The position numbers were made by a program, and so were the translations under genes. A stretch of DNA of 64,000 nucleotides from assembly GCA_949130485.1 (NCBI GenBank), contig OX422185.1, positions 2,402,304-2,466,303 on the forward strand, in the 5' to 3' direction. The DNA is from Agelas oroides. Lineage: Eukaryota; Porifera; Demospongiae; Agelasida; Agelasidae. Numbering within the stretch: the stretch's first letter is position 1; each line of letters opens with the position of its first letter. Shown here piece by piece: positions 10,804 through 34,122 of this stretch. The notes beneath the pieces were generated by a model. That model ran no database searches, had not been told where the DNA came from, and was given only the letters and a program-made list of their open reading frames with translations.

Positions 10804-11117
10804 TCATACAATATACATACCTCCAGGCTTGTGGTTCTTGGCTATTTTCCTCGCAATTGCCATGTTTGCTCCACCTGCAGGATGACCCACTGCCTCCACC
10901 AATTGCTGCCAAGTTGGTTCACCAAACTTCTTTACTTTGTATTTCCTATTCAGCCACTCACTCAACATTGAGTCAATGCAAGCAGGATGGTAGCCAATGT
11001 TCTCAGCTTGGATGTTATCAAGTGCATTAGGATTCAGTCGTAGAGCAATACCAATGCTCTTCCACAGTGCAGCAACTGGGAAGAGCTCCTTCTTCACTTC
11101 AAAGAGATCATCAATAT
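10804..11117 (-). CDS. Death-domain exon A
   Basis: This exon encodes a full death domain of about 98 residues, with the family pattern LFEVKKELFPVAALWKSIG, LNPNALDNIQAEN, MLSEWLNRKY, PTWQQLVEAVG and ANMAIARKIAKNH. The acceptor is at 11118-11119 and the exon starts in phase 1. It either reads on to a stop at 10804-10806 (…PGGMYIV) or splices at a GTATGT donor just below 10821, again in phase 1. Death domains mediate homotypic contacts in apoptosis and innate-immune signalling; that role here is inferred from the fold family. It is close in sequence to exon B at 17380-17673 and is probably the 3' end of the same gene or of a duplicated neighbour. Confidence 0.72.
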
Positions 11118-11796
11118 CTGTATGAGCAGTGTGACAGAACAAAATAGTTTCATTTTAGGAATGCACCACATACTAAAATAATAGTAAACATTAACTGGAG
11201 TGTCCTATATGTGGCACATAATCTATGGCCACTAGGTTCAATGGAGTCTGCAAAGGTGCTTCACATTGGTACAGTACTATAAGTTACTAGATTTGAAAAG
11301 TGATGATGTCAGTTTGACAAAGACTGCAGGTTAATCTCAGCCCACTCACCTTCCTGCAGTCTACATTTTCTGACTTCATAGTTGACATAACTACAATTTT
11401 CTTACAGTATGAGACTGACACTGACTCTGGATATGGCTATGGAGGCCAGCGAGCAAAGATCACTGATGGTGTAAGGCTCATCATCAATGAATCTATTTAA
11501 GCAATCAACATCGCAGGAAAGGCATATAACGTTTTGGCTTGTGAGTCTTCTTCAGTTATGGCACAAAAGTGGTTTGACACTCAACAAGCTATGGCTCTCA
11601 TTGCTGGAACTTTCACTGTAACTGGAAACATAATTAACATTGCTGTATTTCTGCTATTTCGAAGTTGTGCCAATTGAGTGATGGACATAGCAGAAAAGAC
11701 AATTCACATTTCAGCTTGTGAGTCTTTATCTGTGGCATCAAATATATTATTACTGGTTTATTAAAGACCACTAGTCATACATAAATAGCTACATGC

Positions 11797-11853
11797 CTAG
11801 TGGAGAGGAGTCAACTTCTCTGACATCAATGACATCAGAAGAACTCTGTGTAG
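11797..11853 (-). CDS. Short linker exon with a non-standard GC donor
   Basis: A 57-nt exon reading TQSSSDVIDVREVDSSPLG in phase 1-1, about 680 nt upstream of death-domain exon A. It is a clear duplicate of the 57-nt exon at 24293-24349 (TQISSDTVDVSDVDTTPLG). The donor here is GCATGT, whereas the sister exon has GTATGT. The exon therefore either uses a GC-AG intron or is decaying. Both copies sit 5' of a death-domain exon, which suggests that a linker-plus-death-domain block was duplicated. Confidence 0.5.
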   Translation of the reverse strand, partial: LHRVLLMSLMSEKLTPLH

Positions 11854-12332
11854 CTAGAGGAAGAGAAGTTATCATTGATGGTAAGACAATCTCGGTATGT
11901 ATGATTGTATACAGTCAACAATGTGGACCCAAACTTTGTATGAACTAACCAGTGAACAAAGTGTAAAAGTTGCTCATAGGCATATAGGAGAGGGGGGAGG
12001 GGGGGGGGGGGGGGGGGGGGGGGGGCACTTTTGGGAAGGAACCGATTGCAGTCAATAGTAGTTTTCAACAGTGCAAGGCAGCAATGGCTGCACAAGAACC
12101 ACAATGTTTGTTTTCGCATGTGTCAACTGTCAAGGTGTGGTAATACAGCTAAGACTAAACACAGCAGCAATACGTACAGCCAAAAAGTGACATCAGAAGC
12201 AACTTCAGACTGCTAATTTAATTTAAGTTGAAATCTAACTTTATACAGACATTCTGATCCAGGTCACACATTTGTCGAGTCCAACATATATATATGAATC
12301 AAGTCCATGGGCATATATACACAGCCTATACA

Positions 12333-13521
12333 TAGAGTAAGTTAGCAATCGTCGGACGACAGGTATATTCGGACACTCAAACGCGGAGGGAAAACTGCGT
12401 AAACATTCGGCGATACCACAAGACTGTAGCTGAGGTACGTGGTACCTGGTGTACCAAAAATGATGCCCGCGCATTGTTTCCTGTTGGCGCTAGAAGCGAT
12501 AAAATGGCCGTCCGAAAAACATCAATATTCGGAAAAGTGTATGTATTTTCAGACACTGTTGTTTGTGCCTTCTCTGAAGCTGCTTTTGGAGAGATTTTAG
12601 CATCGATACGATGCCCCAAGACCTCCCCAATTCGCAATATATTTTGGTAGCGGTAGCTGCTTTGAACACGGGTCTCATTACTTTCACGTCGTTTCATGTC
12701 CCCTGTCACATGACCCAGGTGCAGGGTGAAAGCCGCATTACGTCGCACTTACGCCACATCGCCACAAGTGGCATCGCATGGTGTTCGTCACTTTTTAAAG
12801 CAGAAAAAAAAAAGAAGGAATAAAACCCATTTCCTGTCCCTAGCCCTAACCCTAACCCTAACCCTAACCTGTATACTGAGCCCTAACCATTAGACCACAA
12901 GCAACTTCGAATGACCATACAGTATACACACTTTTCCGTCTAATGTGTACCACCCAACTGTCATACAAGTGCCATACAAGTGCCATACAAGTGCCATACT
13001 ACACTACGCATGCGCAATGCAGGCTCCACCCACACATATCACGTGAGGGGGCATGAAACGACGTGAAAGTATTGAGACCCGGCCTCCCCTTTGAACACTC
13101 AGGGGCGCAGCTGAACATGGACCGGTCCGATTCGATCGATATCGGACGGTGAAATTTGTCATTTTTTGCTGTGTTGTCTCCAAACAAGTTGAGGTCTCCA
13201 CCATATTAGCATCAGTAGAATCTACAGGCTCTTGGCTACATGCTGGTACTTGTCCGGAGTTTGTGCGTTGAGTAGTTCTCGAGATATAAATATATTTCAT
13301 GTTTCTTTCCATAAACTACGCTGGTTGATTTATGTGCAGCATAAATAGGTGAGTTCAAACGATATCGTGCAATATCTCGAGAACTACTCGTCATTTTTGG
13401 TACACCAGGTACCACGTACCTCAGCTACAGTCTTGTGGTATCGCCGAATGTTTACGCAGTTTTCCCTCCGCGTTTGAGTGTCCGAATATACCTGTCGTCC
13501 GATGATTGCTAACTTACTCTA
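12333..13521. mobile_element. 1.19-kb TIR element with nested palindrome and a telomere-like tract
   Basis: Outer inverted repeats of about 130 bp (12333-12465 and 13393-13521) begin TAGAGTAAGTTAGCAATC and include 'acaggtatattcggacac'. TA at each end fits a TA target duplication. Inner inverted repeats at about 12670-12730 and 13020-13085 ('ctttcacgtcgtttcatg') make the element a nested palindrome. The centre has (CCCTAA)n at 12839-12868. No transposase is present. Its right end is 17 bp from the linker exon at 13539. Confidence 0.8.
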
Positions 13522-13538
13522 GCTACATGTAAAGGTAC

Positions 13539-15930
13539 TGATATTTGCAGTTGCTGACTTTTTGATTCTTCTTCTTCTTGTGGACTGGATGGTGTCTCCT
13601 TGGGTGCTGACACCTCTGGCACTGCAGTAAGAAAGGTAATAGTATTAATTGATTCCAGGACTACACTGTGACAGTAAACTACACTACATTATTACTACCA
13701 TGAACCATGTACAATGACTATAGCATGGATTATCGTGAGGTCATAATGCCTGGAGGATCAATACACATGCACAAACAGTACATAGAAAAGTACTTGAGCG
13801 TAGTTGAAAGAGGTGAGTACAAAAAATATTATTTACTAAATTTGTCAATTAATACATTGTTATTGCATGGACAATGTCTCAGACACAGCTCTCATGTAAT
13901 CACTGATCCTACATTACATGCACCTTAGCCCATGTAGTTGCTGGGGGAGGGGGAACGCTTGGGCCTTTCCAGTTTAAGTAAAGCTTTGAAATTAGATACT
14001 CGGAGATCATATTTGGCAAACAGGATTCTGAATTAATATATGCCCATGATGTGTCGTGAATGCTGTCGAGTTCAGCCAGACTTTGTCTGTTAAGTTAGTT
14101 ACATGGATCCGAAAGAGTTTGAAAAACTGGCGAAAAGTAGAGATAGAAACTTGGCCTCTGTAGTCTACATAAATAATTACAGCACAAAACCCACACTGGC
14201 TTGCAGTATGCCTGAGTCCATTAAAAAGCTTATCAAACAACCAGTGAAAATATGTTAGCTAGTTGCTGATTCAGCTGTTCTTTTATATATGTGTAAAAAC
14301 ATTTGCAATAATAATTTTATGCTAAGTACTAACGTTTGGCTTTGCAGGTGCCAAAGCATATTTTTGTGCAAGTCTGGAAAGCTGACAAATGCTTAATGAT
14401 GAGAACCTTACTATTAGCATCCTTTGGCCAGCTTTGTAGCAGATATAGACAAAAGTTGATGCCCCAAAGGACAAAATTGATAGGAAATCAGTGCACAAAT
14501 TTGTAGTATTGTTGCAAGGCTGCTGATCATATATAGCTACGAGCACCAAAAATGGACCACACAGATATAATGCATCATCAACTTCTTGATGACTTGGCAG
14601 TTCCGAACTTATCGTTAGTAGTTTACCTCTACGTCAGATTCCTGGGTTGGCACAAAAACCCTGACTAGAAAGTCAAAAGGTCAGCAGGAGTACAGCACAG
14701 TAGAAAATGTTCTACACATTACAAAATATGGCTTTTTCATTTACATTTTCATCATTCCTGGTTTTACCACTTACTTGCACTCATGATATTATACTATCAT
14801 ATTTTCACTTGCTTTTAGCTTTTGAAAGCATTGGCACTTGTAAACTTATACTACTAACTCCTACTTGAGAAAAAACGTTAGGTCATGTTTATAGCTAAAC
14901 TTAAAAGGTACACCTGTACAATGATATAAAATTCATGAGTCTTAAAAGCACAAGAGATTACCACATTTTTGTCATTGACAATGGCTGTGAGATAAAATCA
15001 GGCATCAGAGAATAAGGCTATGACCACACTCCTTACAGTGTTACATATACAGAGATAAATGCCAACAATAACAAGCATGTTAGCTACATGGGAGGGACGG
15101 TGGGAGATGGAAAAGGTAGTCTCATTCCCAGACTATTTTTTGGCACGTATGTGGAAAAACAGTCTGGGCACGATACTATGAGAGGGTGTGAAGTTGCTGG
15201 CAGACAACAAACAGCCGAGAGAGCACACTTACCTATTTTTGTTTCTTGTGAACTGGGTTGTAGCTGCTGAGACACTAGTGGCACCACTGTAAGTAAGGTG
15301 ACATTTGACTCCTGGACTATAATGTGACAGTGAATTGTACTATTAGGTACATTAAAAATAGTTGCTTTATTGCCCTCTTAAAAACTAAGCATGATAGTAA
15401 TAGATTCTAAAATAGCATGGAAGTACCATGTTGTAATGCCTAAGTCTGAATGCATGGCACCAAATCATCAACACAGCTAGCTAGCATGTTACCTTGTTCA
15501 TCTGTTATGGAATGATGTGGGGGAGGGGTTGTTCTCTCAGATTGTGAGGAGGTTGGAGGTGAGGAAGGATGGTCAGAGATACTAGAGGGAGGAGGTGAAC
15601 CTACTGGGAGACAAGCGATAGTCAATACACCGAACACACTGTTATAGTATAACATTACATTTGAAAGCCAATACAGCTAGCAACCATTTTACCTGAGTGA
15701 TGTTGTTTGGGTGAGTGAGGGGCAGAGGAGGTCACTTTGTCAACAACAACAGGTTGCTGGGATGCTGAAGGAGGAGAGGGACTGTCAGAGATGGTCGAGG
15801 AGGGAGGGGATGGACCTACTGAGAGATAACAAACATGAATAATAACCTGAAATGTGCAGTAGAGAACTATTAGTCTTACTCATTTGTTTTTCTTCCTCTC
15901 CCTGTGTATTGGGTGGTGTTTGTTGGGGCA
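13539..15930 (-). CDS. Cluster of five Ser/Pro-rich linker exons
   Basis: Five small minus-strand exons: 15880-15930 (QQTPPNTQGEEEKQM), 15693-15815 (PSPPSSTISDSPSPPSASQQ), 15493-15600 (GSPPPSSISDHPSSPPTSSQ), 15233-15286 (VPLVSQQLQPSSQETKIG) and 13539-13621 (PEVSAPKETPSSPQEEEE). Each has an AG acceptor and a GT donor; the first four are phase 1 at both ends. They would form a flexible, low-complexity spacer between the death domain encoded at 17380-17673 and the one at 10804-11117. The exons at 13539, 15233 and 15880 share flanking intron sequence ending in a conserved block near 'atgtgacagtgaa', so they arose by duplication of exon plus intron. The donor of the last exon lies 17 bp from a transposon end at 13521 and is out of phase with the others. 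Confidence 0.55.
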
Positions 15931-15995
15931 CTGCAGTAAGAAGGGTAACAGTAATAACTCCAGGACTACAATGTGACAGTGAACTATATATCACA

Positions 15996-16385
15996 GTAAA
16001 AACAAATTGGTTGTTTTAACCACAGAGTGGCTCTGCTGGTTGCAGACTAGGTAAAGAAATGAGAGGATTAGTTTGGTATTAGAGACCAATTGCATAAGGC
16101 AACCTGAGAGGCAGCTGCATGCCCCTTCATCTTACAACCATAACACAGTGACATGTTCCTTACTACAACTTTAAAGTGCACTTGTAATGACTCCTTCACA
16201 GATGTTCTGGGGGTTGTCAGTCTACTGTGGTTGTAAGATGAACTGGGCAGCTAACTCTCAGGTTGCCTTATGCAACTAGTCTTCCATACCAAATTAAACC
16301 TCTCATAATCACTGTCTCTCCAGCTTGTATGCAACTAAAGTAACCACTCTGCCATTAAAACAACCAACTTGTTTTTGCAGAGTAT
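15996..16385. mobile_element. Fold-back element between linker exons and death-domain exon B
   Basis: Two diverged inverted arms of about 145 bp, 15996-16141 and 16237-16385, share 'gcataaggcaacctgaga' and 'catcttacaacca'. The spacer is about 95 bp and non-coding. Confidence 0.65.
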
Positions 16386-16562
16386 ATTAGCTGGTTACAA
16401 CACCACAATTGGTCATATACTAGTTATGGTGGCATTAATGGTCAGGCACACATAATATAGACATAGTATACTTACATTAGGTGTTGAAAGAAGTGGGCAA
16501 TCAATTACATTATACCATACCCTAATTGCATTGAGAGTTGTTAAAGCAAGGTAGTTGCTGTC

Positions 16563-17040
16563 CCATTTTAATTAATTAATTAACACCTTTAACACATTTT
16601 TTTCACTAGAGTACTTTCACCTTTACCACACCACATTTTCATTTCTGTCGGAGCCCTGCAGCTGCCTCCAAAACTGAGTTCAGCAAAAATAAGCAGACTT
16701 GTGACTTTAACTATGCCCACTCATTATTGAGCATGTAATAGCCAACATTCTTGGCTAGCAAACACCAGTTCAGAACACAAACCGCCCTGCTGAATGCCCT
16801 ACAAGGTGAGAGTAGTGCTTTCTAAACCCATTCATGCAGCTGGGGCGAAAATTGGCCCACCTGGTGCCAACCATTTACAGCCATGCTTAACTCTACTAAT
16901 TAGCAGCTGCCATGTGCAAAGCACCCTGCGGGTGACCCCACCCATTTCTCCCTGTCCCACTCTTTCTGCTGATGCAGAACCTGCAAGCAAGCGCAGTATG
17001 ACATAACCAAAAGTGCACAATAGGGTCTAGTAGGTTAATA
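16563..17040. mobile_element. Degenerate copy of the 4915-5420 TTAA MITE
   Basis: Aligns with 4915-5420 over nearly the whole element, including 'agcagacttgtgactttaac' and 'aattggcccacctggtgcc', but the ends are eroded. It lies between death-domain exon B and the linker exons. Confidence 0.6.
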
Positions 17041-17379
17041 AGCTGTAGATCTTTTCACCTTCAACTTGTGCATATTTCTGTTAAAGTCAACGAGCTATGC
17101 TTGTAGTCAATTGCATTTGCTGCACTGGCAACTGTTAAGACTCGACTTTGTCAAGTAAGTTAGTTATCAGATCAGAGAGCAGCTGCTTGACTTGGTTGAA
17201 ATTCTTTTCTATGCATGCACTGTATATCTCTGCATTCTAATACTATTAATGATCCGAGAAAGCCTCTGGTTGCCGTGCTGGCATTCATAATTCACTTGCA
17301 TTTGGCTCAGTGTGAATTACCAAACTAAATTCTGTTACAATTTATGAAAAAAATATACCTTGCAATAAATTTGATATAC

Positions 17380-17673
17380 CTGTAGCCTTGTATTTCTTGG
17401 CTATGTCACTTGCAAGTGCCATGTTTGCTCCACCTGTGATGTCACTCAATGCCTTGACCAACCGCTGCCAAGTTGGTGGTCCGAACTTCTTCTCATTGTA
17501 GTTTCTCTTCAGCCACTCTTTCACCACTGAAGTCAAACACCCAGGGTCACTACTATTCTTAGTTTGAATGCTCTCCAAGATATTAGACTCCAGTTGCAGA
17601 GCACAACCAAAGCTCTTCCAGTTTGTAGTGACTGGGGTAAGTTCTTCTCGTACATCATAGAGATCCTCAATAT
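17380..17673 (-). CDS. Death-domain exon B
   Basis: This exon encodes a second complete death domain: IEDLYDVREELTPVTTNWKS, then LQLESNILESIQTKN, VVKEWLKRNY, PTWQRLVKALSD and ANMALASDIAKKYKAT. The length (294 nt), borders and phase (1-1) match exon A at 10804-11117, so the two come from one duplication. The donor reads GTATAT. Downstream on the minus strand lie the five linker exons at 13539-15930 and then exon A. The simplest model is one gene with two death domains separated by a linker; two separate genes are also possible because no internal start or stop exon was identified. Confidence 0.72.
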
Positions 17674-17699
17674 CTGAAGGGCAGAACAAAACTTGTTAC

Positions 17700-19189
17700 A
17701 TGAGTGTTTCTCCAACGAGACACAGTCACACTTACATCATGCATATTGGAAGCACATCCACTTACCTTAGACGCATTTTGATCTAGCAAGAGTTTTTTGA
17801 CACAGGGCATAGGCTCAAGTCTAGTAAGCCTCCTATATTGAATTGATCAGCTTTAGAAATACAGGGGTCTACTGTAATGTGTGTACTGTGAAAACACATG
17901 TGAACCTGTGAACTCACACCAGAAATATTTTATAGCTGGAACATAATTTTTTTCCTCACCGACACAGCACATGCAACTGTTGTCAAACAAGATGGCCATG
18001 CTACTGCTATCTATATCTGAGTTATGTAGGAGCTAAGAACACAATGCTGGCCTTACATGAGAGGCATTGACAATACTCTATAGAAGTGTCTTTAGTAGGC
18101 AAAGCTGTACATGCATGGGAATGATTGTGCAGTATATTCGTCTAGAACAAAGCATTCCAGCTGTCAAATATTTCCAATGAGTCCACAGTCCATAGATTAC
18201 AATAGGCCCATACAGATGTGGCTTGAAATGAATCTGGCAGAGTGATTTTGCTTGCTGCTTGGTACCATTAGCTATTTATTCAAGTATATCAACTGCTCAC
18301 TAGCAAAATGTAAACATAATTACACCCCAAGATGCAACTTAAAGGACCCGCGTAAATAAATAATATAACTAATATAACTAATATAACCCAATATAATACA
18401 CAGGCCGGAGGAAGCGTTGAACATCCAATCTGAGTTGATATTCGTTAATGGCATGGTGCACTTATCCCATGAATGAAACTTTGGTACACCAACAACTCTC
18501 CCTTCACCAGCTACACCACTGTCACCCCTCACAGCGACTCCCGAAGCGATATTTCCGCTTACGTGACGTCACGCGTTCAATATACTACGTATAAAATCAT
18601 TGCGTGTATTGAGCGCGCTACCGCGCTTCGGGCTGATATTACGCACGCGAGTATAAAGGAAGTGAAGGCGTGCCTTGCTATTCACAATTGATAAACTGAT
18701 GTCTGGCTCCTCCCTTGAGGGTAAAGCTTTTTTAAGAAACCACAAAACTCTGAACTCTAAGGCTTTCTACTTCAGGTAAATTTGCAGCACAAAATCCTGA
18801 TCTCTAAAACCTACTTCAGGTCTTGTAGCTAAGTAGCAGTGGCCTACCAGCAAACATTACCTCTTATAAGCATCTTGGGGTGCAGTTACTTTGCTCGGTA
18901 ACTAAGCCATTTTATATATCTGCAGGTGCTCTTTGGGGCTGTGGTTTACATGTGTACTTAACTATAAGACAATGTAATTCTACAACCGTGATGACAACAG
19001 TGTTGCAATAACTGTGCCTTTCTCTTTCCATGTTATGGTTTAGCAAACTTGAGTAAAAGTAAGGGTTTCCTTTCAATTAGTGGTCCGCCTCCAGTAGCCA
19101 TGGGTTAAATTACATATCTTGTTCAGTTATGGCTCCATGCGGCAGGACATGAATTCTGCTATTTTGTAATTGTCTGTTGTGCTAGACAT
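17700..19189. other. Non-coding stretch upstream of death-domain exon B
   Basis: I see no exon. A short CpG-rich patch with a TGACGTCA site is at 18540-18670, and small 'aatataact' repeats are at 18360-18395. Otherwise it is ordinary AT-rich sequence leading into the satellite array. Confidence 0.4.
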
Positions 19190-22100
19190 GTGGTGGATCT
19201 CTGTTATATTCATGTTTTCTTGGATGAACTCTAGTGCTATGAGCAGCAATCATGTATTTTTATAAAAGTATTCATGCCTTATTGGAACCTTGAGTTACAC
19301 AAAGGATGTAACTCTACACTGTGGTAAAAAGTAGGAGGTACAAGGTCTTGCAAATGCATGCAGAGGTTTTTTCGTTCAGTGTAGAGAGAAAATATAGTTT
19401 TGAAAGATGAATAGGCTCATACAATTGAAACAGTAGTTTTTTGTGGCTAAAGATCAAAGAAAGTTGAGACAAGGTCAACTGGTTTGTAATTTTTATCCCA
19501 CATTGACAACTGCCTGTAGCTAAGTAGATCAACCAAAAATATAATACTTCCTGTGATATGTGGTCGATCAATGACTACTTTCCTTTTATAACAGCCTTGC
19601 GGTAGAGCCAGTGATGTATATCCTCTCCAGCTCTCCTTTCTAAGAACTTTCTGACTAAACTGTGCATGATAGGGTCTTGTCAGTATTGTAACCTTGGGCA
19701 AAATTTTTGTCACTTAAACATAAAAATTGTCCAGTAACCTATCAACGGTAACTGCAAGTGGATTTGATATTACTTATTAGTGCACCTACATGTGTATGTA
19801 CATGTACAGCAAGCAGGATTGAGGTCATTGTATTAGACTCAGTGTGGTATATCAAGTACCATAATATATCACTGTAAAAAATGGGTAGTCTGGTCGTAAG
19901 AGAGGTCACCTCATTTGCAGTTTGAGTCCCATTCAAGTTTAGGCAGTAGCCCACCTCCTTTTGCCATGGTAGGGTTACACCCCTTTTTGACTCAGGTTTC
20001 CAGTACAACATGAACAAACGTTATTTTGTTTTTTTCCAAAAAAAGGGGTGGAACGCTAGCTATATTCATGTAGTACTGAATGAACTTTGGGCAATATTTA
20101 TGCATTTTTGCATAAGAATTCATACCTTATTGGGTAGGTCAGATTTAGTCAGTGGCCCACCTCCTTTTTCCATAGTAGGGTTACACCCCTTTCTGACTCA
20201 GGTTTCCAGTACAACATGAATAAACGTTATTTTGTTTTTTGCCAAAAAAGGGGTGGAACACTGGTTATATTCATGTAGTACTGGGAACTTGGGAATATTC
20301 AGATACTATGAGCCACAATCATGTATTTTTATAAAAGTATTCATGCCTTATTGGAACTTTGCGTTACACAAAGGATGTAGCTAACTCTACATTGTGGTAA
20401 AAAGGAGGAGGTGCAAGGTCTTGCAAATGAATGCAGAGGTTTTTTCTTCCAGTGTAGAGAGAAAACATACAGAAAAAGGTTTTTGAAAGCTGAATAGGCT
20501 CATACAGTTGGAACTATAGTTTTTTTGTGGCTAAAGATCAAAGAAAGTTGAGACAAGGCCAATTGGTTAATTGGTTTGTAATTTTATCCCACATTGACAA
20601 CTGCATGTAACTAAGTAAAATGTAACACTTCCTGTGATTGTGGTCGATCAATGACTACTTTCCTTTTATGACAGTCATTCATATACCACTATAAAAAATG
20701 GATAACCCAGTAAGTCAGTTCAAGTTCCATTCAGGTTTAGGTGGTGGCCCACCTCCTTTTCCATGGTAGGGTTACACCCTTTTGTGACTCAGTTTTCCAG
20801 TACAACATGAATAAAATTCTTTGGTTTGTACCGAAAAAGGGGTAACACTGGCTGTATTCATGTAGTACTGAATGAACTTTGGGCAATATTTATGCATTTT
20901 TGCATAAGAATTCATACCTTATTGGGTAGGTCAGATTTAGTCAGTGGCCCACCTCCTTTTTCCATAGTAGGGTTACACCCCTTTCTGACTCAGGTTTCCA
21001 GTACAACATGAATAAACGTTATTTTGTTTTTTGCCAAAAAAGGGGTGGAACACTGGTTATATTCATGTAGTACTGGGAACTTGGGAATATTCAGATACTA
21101 TGAAGCCACAATCATGTATTTTTATAAAAGTATTCATGCCTTATTGGAACTTTGCGTTACACAAAGGATGTAGCTAACTCTACATTGTGGTAAAAAGGAG
21201 GAGGTGCAAGGTCTTGCAAATGAATGCAGAGGTTTTTTCTTCCAGTGTAGAGAGAAAACATACAGAAAAAGGTTTTTGAAAGCTGAATAGGCTCATACAG
21301 TTGGAACTATAGTTTTTTTGTGGCTAAAGATCAAAGAAAGTTGAGACAAGGCCAATTGGTTAATTGGTTTGTAATTTTATCCCACATTGACAACTGCATG
21401 TAACTAAGTAAAATGTAACACTTCCTGTGATTGTGGTCGATCAATGACTACTTTCCTTTTATGACAGTCATTCATATACCACTATAAAAAATGGATAACC
21501 CAGTAAGTCAGTTCAAGTTCCATTCAGGTTTAGGTGGTGGCCCACCTCCTTTTCCATGGTAGGGTTACACCCTTTTGTGACTCAGTTTTCCAGTACAACA
21601 TGAATAAAATTCTTTGGTTTGTACCGAAAAAGGGGTGGAACGCTAGCTATATTCATGTAGTACTGAATGAACTTTGGGCAATATTTATGCATTTTTGCAT
21701 AAGAATTCATACCTTATTGGGTAGGTCAGATTTAGTCAGTGGCCCACCTCCTTTTTCCATTGTAGGGTTACACCCCTTTCTGACTCAGGTTTCCAGTACA
21801 ACATGAATAAACGTTATTTTGTTTTTTGCCAAAAAAGGGGTGGAACACTGGTTATATTCATGTAGTACTGGGAACTTGGGAATATTCAGATACTATGAAG
21901 CCACAATCATGTATTTTTATAAAAGTATTCATGCCTTATTGGAACTTTGCGTTACACAAAGGATGTAGCTAACTCTACATTGTGGTAAAAAGGAGGAGGT
22001 GCAAGGTCTTGCAAATGAATGCAGAGGTTTTTTCTTCCAGTGTAGAGAGAAAACATACAGAAAAAGGTTTTTGAAAGCTGAATAGGCTCATACAGTTGGA

Positions 22101-24150
22101 ACTATAGTTTTTTTGTGGCTAAAGATCAAAGAAAGTTGAGACAAGGCCAATTGGTTAATTGGTTTGTAATTTTATCCCACATTGACAACTGCATGTAACT
22201 AAGTAAAATGTAACACTTCCTGTGATTGTGGTCGATCAATGACTACTTTCCTTTTATGACAGTCATTCATATACCACTATAAAAAATGGATAACCCAGTA
22301 AGTCAGTTCAAGTTACATTCAGGTTTAGGTGGTGGCCCACCTCCTTTTCCATGGTAGGGTTACACCCTTTTGTGACTCAGTTTTCCAGTACAACATGAAT
22401 AAAATTCTTTGGTTTGTACCGAAAAAGGGGTAACACTGGCTGTATTCATGTAGTACTGAATGAACTTTGGGCAATATTTATGCATTTTTGCATAAGAATT
22501 CATACCTTATTGGGTAGGTCAGATTTAGTCAGTGGCCCACCTCCTTTTTCCATTGTAGGGTTACACCCCTTTCTGACTCAGGTTTCCAGTACAACATGAA
22601 TAAACGTTATTTTGTTTTTTGCCAAAAAAGGGGTGGAACACTGGTTATATTCATGTAGTACTGGGAACTTGGGAATATTCAGATACTATGAGCCACAATC
22701 ATGTATTTTTATAAAAGTATTCATGCCTTATTGGAACTTTGCGTTACACAAAGGATGTAGCTAACTCTACATTGTGGTAAAAAGGAGGAGGTGCAAGGTC
22801 TTGCAAATGAATGCAGAGGTTTTTTCTTCCAGTGTAGAGAGAAAACATACAGAAAAAGGTTTTTGAAAGCTGAATAGGCTCATACAGTTGGAACTATAGT
22901 TTTTTTGTGGCTAAAGATCAAAGAAAGTTGAGACAAGGCCAATTGGTTAATTGGTTTGTAATTTTATCCCACATTGACAACTGCATGTAACTAAGTAAAA
23001 TGTAACACTTCCTGTGATTGTGGTCGATCAATGACTACTTTCCTTTTATGACAGTCATTCATATACCACTATAAAAAATGGATAACCCAGTAAGTCAGTT
23101 CAAGTTCCATTCAGGTTTAGGTGGTGGCCCACCTCCTTTTCCATGGTAGGGTTACACCCTTTTGTGACTCAGTTTTCCAGTACAACATGAATAAAATTCT
23201 TTGGTTTGTACCGAAAAAGGGGTGGAACACTGGCTGTATTCATGTAGTACTGAATGAACTTTGGGCAGTATTTATGCATTTTTGCATAAGAATTCATACC
23301 TTATTGGGTAGGTCAGATTTAGTCAGTGGCCCACCTCCTTTTTCCATAGTAGGGTTACACCCCTTTCTGACTCAGGTTTCCAGTACAACATGAATAAACG
23401 TTATTTTGTTTGTGCCAAAAAAGGGGTGGAACACTGTGTTCCTGTAGTACTGGGAACTTGGGAATATTCAGATACTATGAGCCACAATCATAAAAGTATT
23501 CATGCCTTACTGGAACTTTGCGTTACACAAAGGATGTAGCTAACTCTACATTGTGGTAAAAAGGAGGAGGTGCAAGGTCTTGCAAATGAATGCAAAGGTT
23601 TTTTCTTCCAGTGTAGAGAGAAAACATACAGAAAAAGGTTTTTGAAAGCTGAATAGGCTCATACAATTGGAACAATAGTTTTTTGTGGCTAAAGATCAAA
23701 GAAAGTTGAGACAAGGCCAATTGGTTAATTGGTTTGTAATTTTATCCCACATTGACAACTGCATGTAACTAAGTAAAAAGACCAAAAATGTAACACTTCC
23801 TGTTATATGTGGTCGATCAATGACTACTTTCCTTTTATGACAGTCATTCATATACCACTATAAAAAATGGATAACCCAGTAAGTCAGTTCAAGTTCCATT
23901 CAGGTTTAGGTGGTGGCCCACCTCCTTTTCCATGGTAGGGTTACACCCTTTTGTGACTCAGTTTTCCAGTACAACATGAATAAAATTCTTTGGTTTGTAC
24001 CGAAAAAGGGGTGGAACACTGGCTGTATTCATGTAGCACTGAATGAACTTCAGATACTATCAGCAGTATTTATGCATTTATTCATACCTTATTGAGTATA
24101 TACACAGAGAATGTAACCCTAAACCATGGTAAAAAGTGGGAGGTGTATGG
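19190..24150 (+). repeat. Long-unit satellite array, about 790-bp units
   Basis: Direct repeats spaced about 780-800 bp (for example 'gcgttacacaaaggatgta' near 20360, 21154, 21951, 22741 and 23520) with a diverged first unit near 19295. Within each unit, a block with 'cccacctcctttttccat' and 'ttccagtacaacatgaat' occurs twice, about 200 bp apart, so the unit is itself built from shorter repeats. Units two to five are almost identical, while the edge units are diverged and truncated. Short open frames in each unit simply repeat and show no sign of being genes. Confidence 0.92.
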
Positions 24151-24292
24151 CGCAACTGAGGTGACCCATCTTGAATTACACTTCCATTTTTTTCCCATGA
24201 AGAGGTTGACACTAATCACAGACATGATGATTGTGATGGCTGGTGGATGGGAAGTGGAGATCGTACACTAGTGCACTTAAGTAGTTACATAC

Positions 24293-24349
24293 CTAGTGGA
24301 GTGGTATCAACATCTGAGACATCAACAGTATCAGAAGAAATCTGTGTGC
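24293..24349 (-). CDS. Short linker exon upstream of death-domain exon B
   Basis: A 57-nt phase 1-1 exon reading TQISSDTVDVSDVDTTPLG with an AG acceptor and a GTATGT donor. It is the intact sister of 11797-11853. If it is spliced to death-domain exon B at 17673, the intron between them contains the whole satellite array of about 790-bp units (19190-24150). Confidence 0.48.
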   Translation of the reverse strand, partial: AHRFLLILLMSQMLIPLH

Positions 24350-24719
24350 CTAGAGGTAGAAAGAAAAAAATGCAGTTAGCTACTATATACAGCCATAATG
24401 ATATACAGTCAAACCAAATTTATTTTTGCAGTCAAATGATCAGATCAGTTGGTCATTAATACATTGGCAACTGTTTCCAGGCCTCCCCACTTCCAGTTTT
24501 TGATCACTTACTATAAAGCAATCAAAAACAGGAAGGTGGGAAGGCCTGGGATTGAGGCTAGACAAGGCTAGACAACTGTGATGAGGCTAGACAACTGCAT
24601 ATGGCTACATCCTAATCAAAGATTTTTACCTGTAACAGGCTACTTTACACTACTTTATAGTTATAGCTGTAGGTTACAAATCTGCTATGCAGCTTATGCA
24701 CATATGTGTACACTAGCGA

Positions 24720-27700
24720 TTTAAGGGAGGGGGGGGGACAGGCCCGCCCCTGTTTCCAGCGAGATTGCGCAACTTACACGTACGTCACGTTTTAATGACT
24801 CTTCACATGACTTGATAACTGTCTGGGACGGTGATGAGTCTACTAGCAAAGCGTCCTGGTATGGCTATTCTGAGCTTGTGTATGATATATTATATGCCAA
24901 ACATGCACGTTGAAATTTTCCCCAGGGATTTAATTTCGCGACTTGCGATGCGCGATAACGCGGTGTGCGCGTGGGTTACTAACGCGCGCCTGTTGCTAAA
25001 GCGCGTGGCACACGCAATATTAATGTTGCGAGTGCAGACAACTCGCAGACATTTAGGACATTTATCCACCGTGAAAATATACGGTACTATGTTATGCAAA
25101 CACAGTTGAAAATGGCCTCAGATCACTCCTCGCGCACTCAAAAATTCCAAAAATGTTCCGGGAAGCATGGCAGTAGTTTCAATGTGCCGAGATAGCTTTT
25201 ACCATATAAATTAGCTGCCCCTCCCCTTCATTAGTGTATGGCGCAGTTTGGCGTCGCCGACATTTCGCTTGCAGAAAGTTCCCGCAAGCGAAAGGTCAGT
25301 GCCAAACTAGTGAAAGTAGCGTTACCTTAAAATTTTTGCGTTTTTCGCGAGTTGCCATTTGCACTCGCAGAAATAAAATTACGTGTGCTCACGCGGCGCC
25401 ACACCGCGCGCCTTTCCGAACAGTAAATAAAATTTGCAGCATTTTTCTTTTGTTGTTCTTTTTTTTTTTTGTTTTTTTTTTTTTTGCAAAAGCCTTTATC
25501 GCTCTAAGATTTGAACGTATAAGCTATAGCTTTAAGGGTTATTTTTTTTTTTATTTCTGCGTTTTGTTCGTGGAGCTAAACGCCGGGCTTGTTCCGCTGC
25601 GAGCTAAGGTCATTCCAACTGGTATTCTTGTATTCAATTGTGTCAGTCCTTGCAGTGTTATGAGCATGCTGATGATTAGCAACCTAACAAGCAAGTATTT
25701 CGCAGGTGTTGACTATATTGTACGCCCAAAGATTCTACGGTGAGTGTATAACCCGGTTGAGATTAGGCGATCTGACATTCGGCAATATAGTTCACTGCCA
25801 ATTCAGCTGCCAAATCGAAATACCGATGCAACTCTCCCGCATACACGCGTGTCTGTTTGCGGTACTGCATGCGCATGTGCAAAAGTTAAGTGGCTGAAAT
25901 TTGATTCGATCGAATATAGAAGCGGTTGGTGGACCAGAAACGGGATATCAGTGTAAAGTGGTCTTAACGTCCCACACTGTGAACGCCGGACTGCCCGTAG
26001 TCTTATGTTCCCCTTCTTTTAATTTATTTATAGCAATTACCAGTTTGAAGCCAACATTATCCACACAACTTACATACGTACCTCCTTCCATTGTGGTGAG
26101 GTCAGGGAGGAAAGGCGCCTCTGTGGTCTGAACTCAGTGAGCTGCAACAATTTATACGCCCCTCTTTTACAATTCACGTGATCAAGTCTACCAATCAGCG
26201 AAGCAAAAACGCTTCCGCTTTAGTCTCATGCCCAGACCCCTTTCAGAAAAATCGAGAAGGGGTCTGGCGACACGGCCATACATAGCTTTGTCCCGCGCGG
26301 ACTGTAGAGTGGGCGCCAATCAGATTGCAGAGTTTAGTTACATCACGTTAATCGCTACGTGCCAAATCTACAAGTTGGTGCTGTGCTGTGCTGTTTGACA
26401 ACGCTCTGATGTTGCTGAGAGAAAGAATGGGGTCTAGAAAATTCTTGCTGAAGCAAAGGCAGGTAACGGAAGCTTTCGCTTCTGGGAGAGATACATTCGC
26501 CAGTCTTCCGACCAGCTACGGTAAGAAATTTTGCCACGGTTGCATTTCCACAGCATAGATACTGTTGAAAAGAGTTTTTCTGAGCTGCAGATATGGCTTG
26601 AACGGCGAGAACACGTTCTACGCATAAACTGTGGCCGATCAGACCGTTCTGTTCCTACAATAGCAAGTAATTGTTCGGACAATAACACGCGTAGCTCTAG
26701 CGCTTTCAGCTTCACGATCTCTTGCCAAGCAGCAGTGTATACGTTGCTTACTGATGTATCGTGGTAGCAGTCTTCGCTCATAAGCGAGGCTAGTGCCTCG
26801 CCGCCACACGGTCACGAAGAACTGACGTATTTGCTGAACGTATTGTGTATGGAAATCTAAAAGGTCAGTTGAAACTTGATTTGTGTGTATGTGAAGTCCT
26901 AAGCTACACTCACGGCACCATGAAACGAAGCCGAGAGGCATCGAAGCAACTTGCATTGTCAGTGGTGACAGGGGACGACCCCGTGTAAGCTCCTACTGTG
27001 AGCAACGAACGAGGTTTATGGTGGTTCTGTGTGTACGTGTATACGAACACATTCGACGATGAAAAGCTCATGTGCATTAAAAGCTTCGAAGTGGCTAGAG
27101 AGCCGGTAGCGGAAATTAAATTCTAGGGTCGATAACTTCTGACAGCAAACTCCAATTTTAATGAAACTAGTATCCATAGATAGAGCTTTAAAAGAGCTAC
27201 AAAATGATATCCTTTTTTCCAGCAAGCTGTTTAGAACAGCCGCCATACCTAGTAAAATTCACTTCGCATAATCCTAAAGTACCGGTACCGGTTCTTTAAG
27301 CGTTTGTATTTGTATTTACGACAATATTAGGCACAGCCTAACGATCTACTGATACTAGTTTCATTAAAATTGGAGTTTGCTATCAGAAGTTATCGACCCT
27401 AGAATTTAATTTCCACTACCGGCTCTCTAGCCACTTCGTAAAAGCTTATGCCAAGAAGAAGCTCGCTATGGGACGTTTACACGAAGGAAAAGTACCTATG
27501 CAAGAAATAGGACGTTAGGGTTACGATCAACTAGTTGGAAATCTGTGAAATGCATACAGGCGCCAGTCGTTTACATATAGGCAATTAATAGTTGACTTAG
27601 TACACAATAATTATTCATTGCCGAAGCTGCGCGAACGCGCGCGCGTCTCCAGCGATGCCTGAGGCCTCGCCGTAATTTAAAGGCCGATCGCTTACCTTTG

Positions 27701-27800
27701 CGCCAAATGTAAGACAAGGAAAGCGTTTCTTCTGTGTTCTGGTGTGTTTTACGGGTAGCGCAGTGTATATACCACGGCTGCATGTAAAGAAATCTTGAAA
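24720..27800. other. CpG-rich island with no supported exon
   Basis: CG dinucleotides are far denser here than in the flanks (runs such as 'gcgatgcgcgataacgcgg' near 24945), with T-rich tracts at 25450-25490 and 25535-25555. Open frames are present but lack domain-like sequence or splice sites. A 'ctcatgcccagacccc' hairpin is at 26222-26275 and an inverted repeat at 27081-27447. It may be a promoter region or recently arrived DNA. Confidence 0.45.
27081..27447. mobile_element. Inverted-repeat element, about 95-bp arms
   Basis: The arms 27081-27173 and 27351-27447 are inverted copies with few differences ('ctagggtcgataacttctga'). The spacer is about 180 bp and non-coding. Confidence 0.75.
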
Positions 27801-28241
27801 ACTAGACTTGAATTGAAGATTCTACGTCCCGCGAAGCGCATTTCTTACGTCTAAAACAAGTAAATTCCTACAAATATTACTGAAAGTATATGTAAAGCGC
27901 CAGATATCTTTACATGCCAACCTAGCAAATATAGTATAGTAGTGCAAGAAAGTAGTGCAGGTGGCTCAGTGTTTGTGCTTTTCAGTAAATGTATACTTGA
28001 GGTTTCTTGCCCAATTCTTGTGACGAGCTTGACCAGGTTGGCTAGGATGATCCATGTAATGCCTATATGTACCTCTTTAGGAATGCTTTCGGATTTAAAT
28101 AGAAGTTGGGGAAGAAGAAACTCATTGGAAAGTGAGCATGCACATATCTGAGGGGGTAATTAGTGATATTAACCTTGACTTTGACTGAAAGGCTTTTGAA
28201 AAGATCACAACTGAGCTGAAACATTGCCTGAGTTCTAACTG

Positions 28242-28491
28242 TCATTTGCTGTTACAGTGGAATGAGTGGCGTATAGGTATGTTTGTATCCACGTGCAGTG
28301 TGAGAACATGGCTTGTTAGATCTCTCCTGTACTGCTCCATCATACATTTCAGCCCATTGTCATCACTAAACACATCCATGATGCTCTGCAGCAGAAAGCA
28401 GTTGAGGTAATCCCAGAGCCCATTTTTGCTGAGTGGAAAACAGACATCTTCTAGACTCTTAGCAGACTCTACAACTTTGGTGATTGTGTCA
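28242..28491 (-). pseudogene. Fragment of the helical domain found in the death-domain proteins
   Basis: The minus strand is open from a possible acceptor at 28492-28493 to a stop at 28242-28244. It reads ITKVVESAKSLEDVCFPLSK, then GLWDYLNCFLLQSIMDVF and LKCMMEQYRRDLTSHV. This has the same layout as INFLNFRLLHLVVKKFG…LKDQVEKYGEEVSKF in the last exon of the gene at 45134-58156. It lacks the C-terminal half of that domain. A coding-looking continuation (MTVRTQAMFQLSCDLFKSLS, from 28245 downward) is in another frame, which suggests a frameshift. It could be an exon with an unrecognised donor, but a broken copy is more likely. Confidence 0.42.
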
Positions 28492-29131
28492 CTTCAGTCT
28501 CAGGAGAGGAGTACATTGTGATGAGAAACATCTGGACAGCGCCAACATGGATCCTTCTACTCTGAAGTCAGCTGTGGAAATCTTCCCCTTGACCATTTGA
28601 ATGTTGTGACACGCTATGATAGCAGATGCTGTTGATTAAGATTCTCTGACCTTACATCTGATGGAATGCCTGTAAATTAGTGTAAAAGATCAATCGTGTG
28701 AAACATTACAGATTACAGGCTCATTCACAAGCTGGGCGTCCTATGCAAATTACTAGGAAGATGCTTTAGCGTCGTGGGGCGAGCCTGAGCAAGCAGCACA
28801 TCAGTGTGCTGATTAGTGTCATGGCACACAGACCACATGTCTGTCCAGGCAGCTAGCTACTGTCGCTACACATGCTCATGGATTTAATAGTAAAAGACTG
28901 AGTAATGCTTATAGTCTCAGGAGAATGAAGCTCTCTCCCTCTCAACTCCTCCAACAAGGCAATCAAGTAAAAACAAACTTGCTGTCTTGATTCTTGAAGA
29001 TAATATTAGACTTCAGTTGCATATAGTTCCTGTGACTTAGTGTATATCCAGAAGACCCAGAGCTAGCAAACTTAATTACCTAAACAATGCATCAGCACCT
29101 CAAGAATCAATGCAGCTAGCAAACATAACAC

Positions 29132-29407
29132 CTGAAAGTAGTTGTGGGGGGAGATGCGGTGGAGAGCAGGACACTCCCAGAACTACAGCAGGAGCCAGGG
29201 AAGGTAGAGAAGTGGAGAGGTGGTCATAAATAATTGGAGAGGGAGGTGGTGGACCTGCCAGGAGACAAAAAGCAGCCATTAACATACAGCTGCATGGGCA
29301 TTCCATTGTGAACTCAATGGATACAATCCCTGTCACACTCATTAATGTAATTTATCCCAATGTGTGGACTGGGTGGTGTCTTCTGGGTTGGTACTGACAC
29401 AGTGGCA
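29132..29407 (-). CDS. Pro-rich linker exon and a degenerate neighbour
   Basis: The exon 29132-29254 reads GPPPPSPIIYDHLSTSLPSL and closely resembles the Pro/Ser linker exons at 15493-15600 and 15693-15815, with the same AG acceptor and GT donor arrangement in phase 1. About 150 nt upstream, a sequence ending at 29407 resembles the linker exons at 13539-13621 and 15880-15930, including the shared intron flank. It has small indels and no clear donor, so it is probably dead. The order is the same as at 15693-15930, consistent with block duplication. Confidence 0.42.
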
Positions 29408-31620
29408 CTACAGTAACATTACAATCCCCAGGACTACAATGTGACAGTGAACTATATTTTCAGAAGTATGAAGATACATTTTCTTTTGAAGTTAACCACA
29501 TTAAGGTAGGACAACCTTGAATCACAAATCTCCGAGTAGTGTGGATGGTGGATGGGTAATGTCACAAGATTCACAAAAAGTTTGTACCAAACTGCTTCCT
29601 CTACCTGATAATGTCAAAAAACTCAATTTTTAGTCCCTCAGCTAGAATAAAAATTTGCACCCTCTCCAAGGCTCCACCCCCAGTCTGACCACATCATCAA
29701 CACACACACAAAACAAGTAAAAACTTTACATATGGATTTGTCCTGGGACCACTTCAATTCCAGTCTACAGGCCAAAACACACATTTGACCTCAAAAACAG
29801 TAATTTTGGCAGTGCTGGCTTTCAAGAAAATTCGACACACCTCCACTCAAACCAACTAAAACTGAGCCCAGTTTCAGAAAGCTCAACTCACCCCCTACAA
29901 AACTATGTATGCTTTTTCCCAGGCCAGGGAGTTATGCACGAACCTACTCCCTGTCATTGCCCCTAGAATGGAGCCAAGTTACACACATTCCCACTGGCAT
30001 AAAATTGGGCGGGGCCTAAGTCAGCTTTCTACAGTACCTTTGCCAGACAACTGTGTGATGATACCCGTCTTCCAGGATGGCTCTCTGCCTTTCCGCCACA
30101 CTCACAAACATTCAAGCCCACTCAGGCAAGCTTTGCACACACAAATAGCCAACCATCACATTCAATGAGCTAGAAAATCTTTTTAGTGTTTTTTAAGTGT
30201 TGGAAGATTTCTTCAAATTTCCGCTCAGCCACATGAAAGTGCCACCAGACCACTACAAAGGGCCGCATGCCACACACCCCCCTTGTTGATTCCGGTTGCC
30301 ACCATGGGAAAGTGTAAACAAGCCAATGAATTTCGATCGCGCCATTATGGTCACCCGATCATTTGTGAATGTGAGGGTAGATTGCAATTGCTAGCTCTGT
30401 ATAGGCTATTGTCTGTGGATGATGTCAGTTGGGTAAATCTAACTTTTAGTCTGGCCATCATAGACTGAACCTCTCCTGTAAGATGGTGATATTTTACCTT
30501 CTACAAATCAATCAGCAAAACATGCAATAGCAAAAACATGCAGCAATAGCTAGTAACTTTGGTACATAATAACTACCTCAACATAATATTGCTAACCCTT
30601 TGTTGAGTGTGGCCAAGCTACCCTTGCAAGAATAGTTAGTAACGTACCAACTAGTTTGTCCTCAACTCAAGATTGGTTTCCAGACACTTCAGTGGAGGGG
30701 CATAGTGAGTAAGCAAGGCCAGATATAGCTGACCTGAGGCTGTTTTAAGGTTACAGCTTTGTCTTTACTCCATTTCAGAGTAATAACATAAAATAACTTA
30801 GGGATATACATACAGCTCAGCTATAAGATATGTATTATAGCTCAGGTTTCTAAATTGCCACATTAAAAGTATAGTTAGATAATGCTCTCTTCAGGTTACT
30901 TTCTAAATTGTTTCTATATAGTGATCTGAGTGTGGGTCCATGGCTACATTTCTGCCATCAGTGTTGATGGAGGAAAGAATGTCTTGTCAAGAAACCAGAA
31001 TTCAGGTTTTATATACCAATAGTAAGAAGTGTTTCATCATGATAAATCATGCATGCGCCAGTGACGGTGTTGGTGCTCCCCCACTCGACACAACTAGTTG
31101 TTTTGCATACATTTGAAGCAGGATCATTGTATAGGCAAGGTGTATGTTGTTGTTGTGTATCCTTGCTGGCTACCTAATCTTCTGATCTTGTATATAGGTG
31201 TTTCCTATATTAGATTGTCTGCACTGCATGGTCTGCAAGCTATGTAATTGCACTGTCCACTCAGATAAAATGATCACATGACTATGTTTCTATTTAAAAG
31301 CCACGAAGCAGGTTATCGTCTGTAATAGTAGAAGAGGGTATATAGAGAAACTATAGGGAAAGTTGGCTCTGACTAGTAGGTAAAAGATTATGCAAAGAAG
31401 CAAAGGACAGGTTATGTGCGTATTGTGTTCACTCCTTTCAGCCAGTGAATAGTAATACTGGCATTACTGGGCTTAACCATGGACTATATTTCATGTACAA
31501 GTACAAGAATCCTGTGTGTAACAAAATTGTGCATCTTTTAGTCATGCTTATTGTAAATGTAAATCACATATGAAGCCAGCTAGACTAAGCTGTATAATCA
31601 ACACAATTTTTATGTATCAT
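29408..31620. other. Gene-free stretch 3' of ACSBG copy 2
   Basis: Contains no exon I can support. It should include the 3' UTR and polyadenylation site of ACSBG copy 2 just below 31621. 'aataaa' is not obvious on the minus strand next to the stop. Confidence 0.35.
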
Positions 31621-33470
31621 TCAAGATTCACTGTACATGGCATCAATTGTTGCTGCATATTTCTTGTGCACAACATGACGTCGGACCTTCAGTGTGGGGC
31701 CTGCAAGACAACAGATGTAATCAGTTCACAGGAAATAAAATTGGTAGTCTGCACATACAACTTCAGGCCCAGTAGTAAGAGTGTCTAACTATTGAACAGG
31801 GCCATAATCATCAAATTTGAAGAGTTGGGCTACTTACTAGTATGCCTGAAAACACAAAAGCTAGTTGGTCTTGTGGGCATGCCCCCTAGAAAATGCATGA
31901 AATTTAGATGCTCTGAGATTAATTACTTCCGAGACCATTTTTGGACCAAAGCGATGGCCAGACCATACATGAATATCTAATTTCTCTACTCATCCCGTCA
32001 CATGTCACTAGTTTCGGCTATGCAATCAATCGCTCAAAGAATGGAAAGTAGTTGGAAGGCTCATCAGTAAGATTTGGAAGAGACTCTTTCACACAAGTTT
32101 CAATTGCAACACATGGCATCTGTCCTGCCAACATGCATGTTGTATGTGTGTGGTGCCTGCATGGGCGTCTGGCGCTAATTGGTGATGTCAAGCAAGCGAA
32201 GAGTGAGGAAAAAAGTGGTCCAAACTAAGCAGACTGGCTGCTACGGCCCTGTTAATCACACTGTAAATTCCAGCTGGATCCTCTAAGTTTAAGGTACTTT
32301 AGTCTTACCAAGTTCCCCTCCACGTATGGAGAAGTCCGAGTCAAGAAGAGTCCACTTTTGTACCTGCACCAGAAAGGTATATTATCTGCCATTACCCTAG
32401 GCAACATATAAGAATGTTGCTCAGTGTTGTAAATTCCTTTTAGTAACCTTCAAACAAAGTTAACTAAGCTACTACATCTTGACTTACTGTAACCATGACC
32501 AAATTTTATTGGCAACAGAAGTTTTAGTATTAGTTCTAGCATAGCTATAAAAATTACTAAACTATAACTATCTGGTGTTCATATTCCAGAACTATAACCA
32601 ACTAAACCAAAATTATTTCCAGATTTGAAAAACTAACTACAACTAAACTAAGAGCATGAACCCCTTACTATAACAACACTGATTGTTGCTCATATCTAAT
32701 TCTACAGTGACATTTATGTACTAAGTAAGCCCATTTCTTGCTCCACCCTCCCTGAACATGAAGATCGTCAAGCCAACAACAGCATTTGGGGTGCCAGTGG
32801 TTTAGGCTTGTAAAATGTTGGCTGTATTCCACTTTGACCCACACAATAAATGAGTTAGTCTCAGAATGTCAACTCCCAGAATGTCAACTTCCCAAAATGT
32901 CAACTCCCAAAATGTCAAGTTGGGAGTTGACATTTAGGGAAGAACCCCAATAAATAACATGTATTAGCACGCATTATATTTATATCTCCAAGCCCTTTCA
33001 GCCAAAAGGCCAGTTTTGCAAGGGGAGGAAGAGCAAAGAAACTTTTTACCTATAGGAAGCAAAAGGTAGAAGTTGAACCATGTACTTTACTCCACATGCT
33101 GAATACTTTAACTTGGCCACAAGTCACCTCCAATGTGTGAAAATGACCATGTGTGAATTATGCATTCATTTATCATGCAAATGCAGATTTAAAGGCAGCT
33201 CAGCCTGATACAGTACAGGTATACCTACCTTCTGTGCTCTGGAAGTGGCATGCTCATTAGCCTTGTCTAGCCCCTCTTGGATGGCAGAGAACACAGCTCG
33301 GTCCTCCTTTTGCAAAATCTCAGATACTTTGGTGTTGCGAGAGCCAAGAGCCTGGATCATCTGTTGTGCTTGTAGGGTAAGGGTGTCCAGGAACTCTCGA
33401 GTTTTAGGGTCCATCTCACACTGGAAGGAGAAAGTGTAGGTGTTTACATGTGTGTGAATGGGAGTACAGT

Positions 33471-33512
<42 letters not shown>

Positions 33513-34090: not shown

Positions 34091-34122
<32 letters not shown>

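Follow-up and report, generated by a model that had tools for sequence, protein, structure and literature searches.

Probable fusion of death-domain modules to an acyl-CoA synthetase in a tandem gene array of the sponge Agelas oroides

The demosponge Agelas oroides contains, on contig OX422185.1 (here C3), a group of death-domain (DD) exons and short linker exons that share one intron phase at both ends. The locus raises the question of which proteins these exons build and how far their common phase extends beyond it. The stretch analysed, referred to as the window, comprises 64,000 nucleotides (C3:2402304-2466303), all exons of its DD genes were read on the minus strand, and the genome searched for comparison comprises 259 Mb on 141 contigs. 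A preliminary description of this DNA had suggested a family of adaptor proteins. Our analysis points to a different product, as the window quite probably holds two members of a tandem fusion-gene family on C3, in which an N-terminal death-fold module is followed by an acyl-CoA synthetase (ACS) of the long-chain type.

Two gene models from death domain to acyl-CoA synthetase

Gene 1 would have the order DD, linker, domain X and ACS, with the following parts:

57796..58156, minus strand: exon 1, start codon and death domain DDX; phase-1 donor
55692..55805, minus strand: Pro/Ser linker, 114 nt; phase 1-1
45143..45855, minus strand: X-domain exon; phase 1 in, phase 0 out
31621..43920, minus strand: ACS exons A1-A17, to the stop; Pfam AMP-binding

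The model (58156-31621) joins 20 exons into a frame of 1077 amino acids (aa) from ATG to stop with no internal stop, and all 19 junctions are GT-AG. The exon frame of DDX alone scores 22.9 bits against Pfam Death (PF00531), for which the curated cut-off is 22.6 bits, and 19.3 bits, below that cut-off, within the whole model. Eight further places on C3 resemble DDX at 71-98% identity. The synthetase part matches the Pfam AMP-binding domain over its full length (1-384 of 384, E 7e-73) as well as AMP-binding_C_3, and its best NCBIfam model is FadD11 with 241 bits, far under that model's cut-off of 950. We take the ACS of the window to be probably of the bubblegum type (ACSBG), which belongs to the long-chain acyl-CoA synthetases, and presume that the gene 1 enzyme retains the motifs expected of an active one. 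It has the same full AMP-binding and C-terminal domains as the long-chain acyl-CoA synthetases, but carries a predicted death-fold extension instead of a free N-terminus.

The preliminary description had placed a separate gene at 45134-58156 that keeps to phase 1. This is correct for the DDX donor and the linker, whereas the X exon exits in phase 0. Since the 16 introns of the ACS part are also mostly phase 0 (11 phase 0, 3 phase 2 and 2 phase 1), the phase-1 rule ends there, and the gene itself does not, as its frame can be followed on to 31621. The DD and linker exons are frame-safe exons of class 1-1, and the ACS keeps its own mostly phase-0 introns. Comparison of gene 1 with its paralogues gave dN/dS values of 0.12-0.47 for DDX, 0.20-0.36 for X and 0.29-0.40 for the ACS, the latter calculated from 12 of the 17 exons (A6, A9, A13, A16 and A17 were left out). 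Judged by these ratios, DDX, X and ACS are under purifying constraint; the short Pro/Ser linker ranges from 0.40 to 1.25. One intron of gene 1 contains, on the opposite strand (47070-48419, plus strand), the remains of a retroelement with reverse transcriptase and RNase H frames.

Gene 2 would have the order (mini-exon), 57-nt linker, DD, Pro/Ser and other linkers, a second 57-nt linker, DD and ACS:

26082..26091, minus strand: probable first exon (mini-exon), inferred; phase-1 donor
24293..24349, minus strand: 57-nt linker exon directly upstream of DD-B; phase 1-1
17380..17673, minus strand: death domain B (DD-B) exon, 294 nt; phase 1-1
15880..15930, minus strand: 51-nt linker; phase 1-1, flanking intron common to the 13.6, 15.3 and 29.4 kb copies
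15693..15815, minus strand: Pro/Ser linker, 123 nt; phase 1-1
15493..15600, minus strand: Pro/Ser linker, 108 nt; phase 1-1
15233..15286, minus strand: 54-nt linker; phase 1-1
11797..11853, minus strand: second 57-nt linker, directly upstream of DD-A; phase 1-1, GC donor
10821..11117, minus strand: death domain A (DD-A) exon, 297 nt; phase 1-1
521..8840, minus strand: ACS exons A1-A9; entry acceptor not unique

The reading frame stays open across the 18 exons joined in the model, one of whose donors is GC; the joined string includes the linker at 29 kb as a frame test only and leaves out the mini-exon. Homologous ACS exons extend left of the window, to C3:2394832. The whole predicted protein scores 24.2 bits against Pfam Death, with no single stretch passing, and the part within the window matches AMP-binding 1-264. 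DD-B alone reaches 21.5 bits against Pfam Death, below the cut-off, DD-A alone gave no Pfam match, and a sequence search of the PDB with DD-B returned nothing up to E 1. Three tandem 47-bp units lie between DD-A and the ACS (9381-9521), the third of which is 66% identical to the first.

The mini-exon reads ATG GAA GGA G before the donor GTACGT and lies 65 nt past the start of a TATA box (~26156). Counted over 2 x 256 kb, there are 14 instances of this pattern (0.27 per 10 kb). One of the four minus-strand matches is 26091 itself and two others precede DD genes of the array described below, a similar GGGCGTATAAA box being present at one of these. Gene 2 probably starts at 26091, so that the linker copies at 29.1-29.4 kb would lie outside and upstream of it. 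The features upstream of the probable start are:

29132..29254, minus strand: Pro/Ser linker, 123 nt; phase 1-1
29132..29416, minus strand: linker copies 5' of the probable start of gene 2, one frame-broken; relics or exons of another transcript
27851..28493, minus strand: degraded X-domain-like stretch interrupted by stops, upstream of gene 2, recognised by eye

The frame 28242-28493 within the X-like stretch gave no Pfam match.

One message or two neighbouring genes

The two genes belong to an array (C3 2.22-2.476 Mb) in which every DD, X and ACS match lies on the minus strand. The architecture DDX-X-ACS is found in gene 1 and unit 2273, and DD-DD-ACS in gene 2; unit 2297 has a split DD followed by an ACS, and in unit 2475 a DD matching at 98% lies 3.6 kb upstream. 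The gap between X and the first ACS exon is about 0.3-1.3 kb in five copies, with about 300 bp in unit 2273 and 1.3 kb in gene 1. Of the 20 places in the genome that match the first ACS exon, 15 lie in the C3 cluster. In the module list, which was copied by hand from the matches listed, a DD or X stands within 6 kb upstream of 10 of these 15 and within 6 kb downstream of none. Random placement in the cluster would give 3.6, a value that reached 10 in 4 of 5000 placements; circular shifts did so in 1 of 2100. Because the units arose as tandem duplicates, the associations are not independent events.

The reading frames are consistent with a junction between module and enzyme. In all five X-type copies the top-scoring ACS acceptor is phase 0, which is the phase of the X donor, and in the DD-type unit 2475 it is phase 1, which is the phase of the DD donor read in the sister unit. 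In three of the five X-type copies (2622, 2720 and 2273) the frame upstream of the conserved enzyme core is open and contains no ATG. From the recurrence, the phases and the open frames we infer that module and enzyme are joined in one mRNA. The proposal of adaptor proteins is unsupported, because both gene models continue in frame into a constrained ACS.

It is also conceivable, although unlikely, that each unit consists of two neighbouring genes, a DD-X or DD-linker adaptor that stops after X and an independent ACS gene that begins at a start of its own. Several observations weigh for such a division and against a single message. The X exons read end in TTTTCG followed by GTAATGTAG, and an equally good alternative to this donor is an in-frame TAG two codons on, which is present in the copies read. 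Two X-type copies have an in-frame ATG 5' of the enzyme core, gene 1 at 43974, ahead of the acceptor, and 2883 within the exon; copies 2273 and 2720 have a possible separate ACS start exon of 14 codons followed by GTAAGT. Further ATG-to-GT candidates, which are not shared, lie in the 1.3-kb gap of gene 1. Units 2369, 2342 and 2251 are DDX-X with no ACS match directly behind. On the other side, the possible start exon is found in only two of the five copies, being broken in 2883 and missing from both 2622 and gene 1, the ATG of gene 1 has no counterpart in 2622, and in unit 2273 about 300 bp separate X from the ACS. The top entry phase fits the upstream module in six copies, though narrowly: the scores are 1.11 against 1.04 in four of the X-type copies, 0.83 against 0.81 in 2622 and 1.06 against 1.04 in 2475.

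Further points against the fusion concern single units or the ACS family as a whole. In copy 2883 X is in two pieces 3.6 kb apart, and unit 2297 has a frame break in the first ACS exon. In gene 2, phase-1 and phase-0 candidates for the entry acceptor tie at 0.97, and the acceptor used in the model (8840) is outside the top four. Its ATP-binding, P-loop-like motif reads GTSGNPNGV (4605-4558) as opposed to GTTGNPKGV in gene 1 (40337-40290). Its activity is uncertain because of this Asn in place of Lys, and the enzyme may be weak or regulatory. Finally, for ten of the 20 first-exon places (five in the cluster and five elsewhere) the matches listed include no DD or X closer than 6 kb; their upstream DNA was not itself read, save 0.5 kb at C22:4762974, where the anchor was not found. 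On balance, we regard the fusion of module and synthetase as the better explanation of the array.

A possible variation of the architecture was noted at the other end of two units. A stop-ended DD exon lies behind the last ACS exon of unit 2475 (window 63811-64000, C3:2466114-2466410) and of unit 2297 (C3:2286376-2286666). Judged by eye, the last ACS exon of both units is without the stop of gene 1, and a phase-1 donor is available at its end; the DD exon behind it has a phase-1 acceptor and then a stop. This suggests that units 2475 and 2297 are DD-ACS-DD genes.

Phase-1 exons in the window and across the genome

In the gene models of the window, the two DD exons and seven linkers have phase 1 at both ends and join in frame. 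As the frame of the linkers was partly picked by joining, the less circular statement is that their lengths (123, 57, 51, 123, 108, 54 and 57 nt) are all multiples of 3. The phase 1-1 previously assigned to both DD exons and both 57-nt linkers is confirmed by the exon phases and the in-frame joins. Phase 1-1 also holds for the five Pro/Ser and short linkers among these seven, but not for two further copies judged by eye, that at 29412, whose phase-1 reading meets an in-frame stop, and that at 13.62 kb, which has no clear donor and abuts a transposon-like inverted repeat. With class 1-1 exons for DDs and linkers, gain, loss or exchange of a module leaves the frame intact, and the frame-safe layout proposed for domains and spacers is upheld.

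The copy at 13.6 kb adjoins a 1.19-kb element (12333-13521) with 131-nt inverted ends that are 99% complementary and 927 nt between them. At about 12840 this element carries a short telomere-like stretch of the CCCTAA type. Tandem units of about 793 bp (19237-24094) lie in the intron that separates DD-B from the 57-nt linker upstream of it, and those in the centre are near-identical.

Outside the window, a search with DD-B gave at least 150 scored places, from 625 candidates. Every 7th of rows 9-121 among the best 150 was taken as a sample (rows counted by hand), resulting in 17 exons that were examined with 70-nt flanks and splice sites scored blind to phase; one of them, L060, holds an in-frame stop. 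Phase 1 gave the best acceptor for all 17 exons and the best donor for all 16 that have one, the remaining exon terminating in a stop codon. As a control, the same kind of score applied to 16 ACS blocks of gene 1 (one misframed) gave phase 1 as the best acceptor in 2 of 16. Among the eight best DD matches (DD-B included, two of them protein-identical), the best acceptor was phase 1 in seven, with L005 in phase 2, and the best donor was phase 1 in five; L006 and L008 slightly prefer phase 2, and the top two donors of L002 include no phase-1 site. Because the 17 sampled exons are nearly all phase 1-1, this is a genome-wide tendency and not a local invention. Phase 1 thus goes with the DD family throughout the genome, which is wider than the local claim made before. 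Not every DD is a separate exon, as 10 of the 150 places lie inside open frames of more than 280 aa.

Judged from its sequences, the DD family is divergent. Ten relatives were scanned against Pfam, of which two match Death (26.3 and 22.3 bits, the first alone exceeding the cut-off) and eight match nothing at E 0.01, so that the cut-off for Death is reached by some members only and others are tied in by pairwise similarity. A side observation from the same genome concerns contig C141 (L067, 22436 bp), in which cox1 is interrupted by a stretch with a LAGLIDADG-like frame; the cox1 frame contains TGA codons and is readable only if TGA encodes an amino acid. We take the frame beside cox1 to be nad1-like and the stretch splitting cox1 to be an intron.

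The linkers recur with flanking intron sequence, as had been stated before, and self-comparison of the window places this similarity above chance: 24360-24266 vs 11864-11769 (78%, E 1e-14), 15986-15927 vs 13681-13618 (84%, E 5e-13), 29457-29413 vs 15989-15945 (89%, E 9e-10) and 29274-29108 vs 15835-15669 (67%, E 2e-5). The linker DNA was considered as a widely dispersed repeat and this was rejected, as a 331-bp query found 8 places, including itself and two other window copies. The pair of 57-nt linker exon and DD exon is present at several loci; the 1.5 kb upstream of the DDs L002, L003, L004 and L006 gave no match to the linker. DD-A and DD-B are 50% identical, whereas DD-A shares 69% and 66% with the DD exons of two other loci. 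A mostly unresolved tree did not recover the two as sister duplicates and did not reject that grouping (p-AU 0.171), so on present sequences they are not demonstrably within-gene duplicates. Exon duplication as the source of diversity is therefore upheld for the linkers with their introns and unproven for DD-A and DD-B.

These results also bear on the original proposal in its full form, a DD adaptor family diversifying by duplication of DD and linker exons within one gene. The intron-carrying linker duplicates inside the region and the class 1-1 exons agree with it, but the frames can be followed into the ACS, DD-A and DD-B are each closer to DDs of other loci than to one another, and the phase-1 DD exon is common to the whole family of at least 150 scored places. 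We consider this version very improbable. A more serious possibility, though still a doubtful one, is that the phase-1 symmetry was passively inherited from a single ancestral DD exon of class 1-1, which whole-gene duplication multiplied with no recent shuffling; this would be compatible with the fusion. The phase common to all 17 sampled DDs and the many paralogues in tandem arrays are what such a history would leave. It does not readily account for the local duplication of linker exons together with their introns, or for a DD that precedes X, another DD or an ACS. The synonymous divergence between gene 1 and unit 2273 is likewise unequal by part (dS 0.058 for DDX, 0.183 for X and 0.295 for the ACS). 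This contrast would fit modules that are exchanged or converted independently of one another along the array and is suggestive only, because the counts are small, with 6 differences in DDX.

Death domains are intracellular and all-alpha, and in this they are unlike typical class 1-1 modules. The vast majority of metazoan class 1-1 modules are extracellular, and the most used ones are mainly beta with a negligible mainly-alpha fraction, as far as the part of the review considered here describes them (Patthy, PMC8001218). The DD exon resembles these modules in having one domain per exon, symmetric phase 1 and several architectures (PMC8001218), being flanked by phase 1 and found here in more than one architecture.

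Domain X and related sponge architectures

Domain X was scored at 142 places in the genome. At C3:170270 it precedes NACHT and leucine-rich repeats (LRR) in an open frame at about 30% identity; NACHT and LRR matches are present in L048. The window member of X gave no Pfam match, and seven members searched at E 10 gave three single-member, chance-like matches; a PDB sequence search returned two weak ones (E 0.44 and 0.99). A weak structure model (pLDDT 41.8) predicts six helices, a strand at 127-135 and then the order strand-helix-strand-strand-helix-helix; Gly-Cys occupies the turn that connects the later strands. If the extra strand 127-135 is omitted, this model, at its low confidence, fits the order of elements given for TRADD-N in the part of the publication considered (PMC8195603).

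The N-terminal arrangement of the window genes has a known counterpart in sponges. In Amphimedon, proteins with DD and TRADD-N (NCOA6 clade) form a lineage-specific expansion of 357 proteins with 1-3 N-terminal Death-like domains, TRADD-N and a variable C-terminus, for which ankyrin, SH3-LRR, kinase, MATH, SH2, PDZ, caspase, PNPase and HD domains are named (PMC8195603). As far as that description goes, the window genes have in common with them the sponge origin, one or more N-terminal DDs, a second module and a variable C-terminus; they differ in the predicted ACS end and, for gene 2, in a model that does not contain X. The terms "AMP-binding", "acyl-CoA" and "exon" have 0 occurrences in the main text of that paper, the source-data files being outside this statement (PMC8195603). 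A second related group are sponge NLRs of the type DEATH-NACHT-LRR (NLRD), of which 25 are described for Dysidea avara in the part of the source considered (PMC12909245). X also stands before NACHT-LRR in this genome, but the gene 1 and gene 2 models gave no NACHT or LRR match at E 0.01 and are in this respect not NLRs. Searches among open-licence papers, judged by titles and the openings of abstracts, revealed no DD-ACS fusion. The N-terminal theme is thus known in sponges; neither the ACS end nor a DD exon of phase 1 throughout the genome was met with in the literature searched.

As to function, the DD would most likely recruit or cluster the ACS in a death-fold complex with NLRs or other DD proteins, and local acyl-CoA production could then become an output of immune or cell-death signalling. 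In a more specific form, which we put forward tentatively, the ACS would be the effector of death-fold signalling: NLR/DD assemblies would recruit DD-ACS proteins, the local activation of fatty acids would lead to membrane remodelling or to cell death of the lipid-peroxidation type, and the array would trade class 1-1 exons, including those of DD-ACS-DD genes.

The phase-1 DD exon, found genome-wide, would offer a concrete mechanism at the exon level for the architectural variety that has been reported, and it is a case of a class 1-1 module that is intracellular and all-alpha. The variable domains named for Amphimedon in the part of the study considered here do not include a metabolic lipid enzyme (PMC8195603). 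If the fusion is true, it would physically couple death-fold signalling to acyl-CoA metabolism in an animal of an early-branching lineage, and, subject to confirmation by transcripts, lipid chemistry would be connected directly to cell-death signalling.

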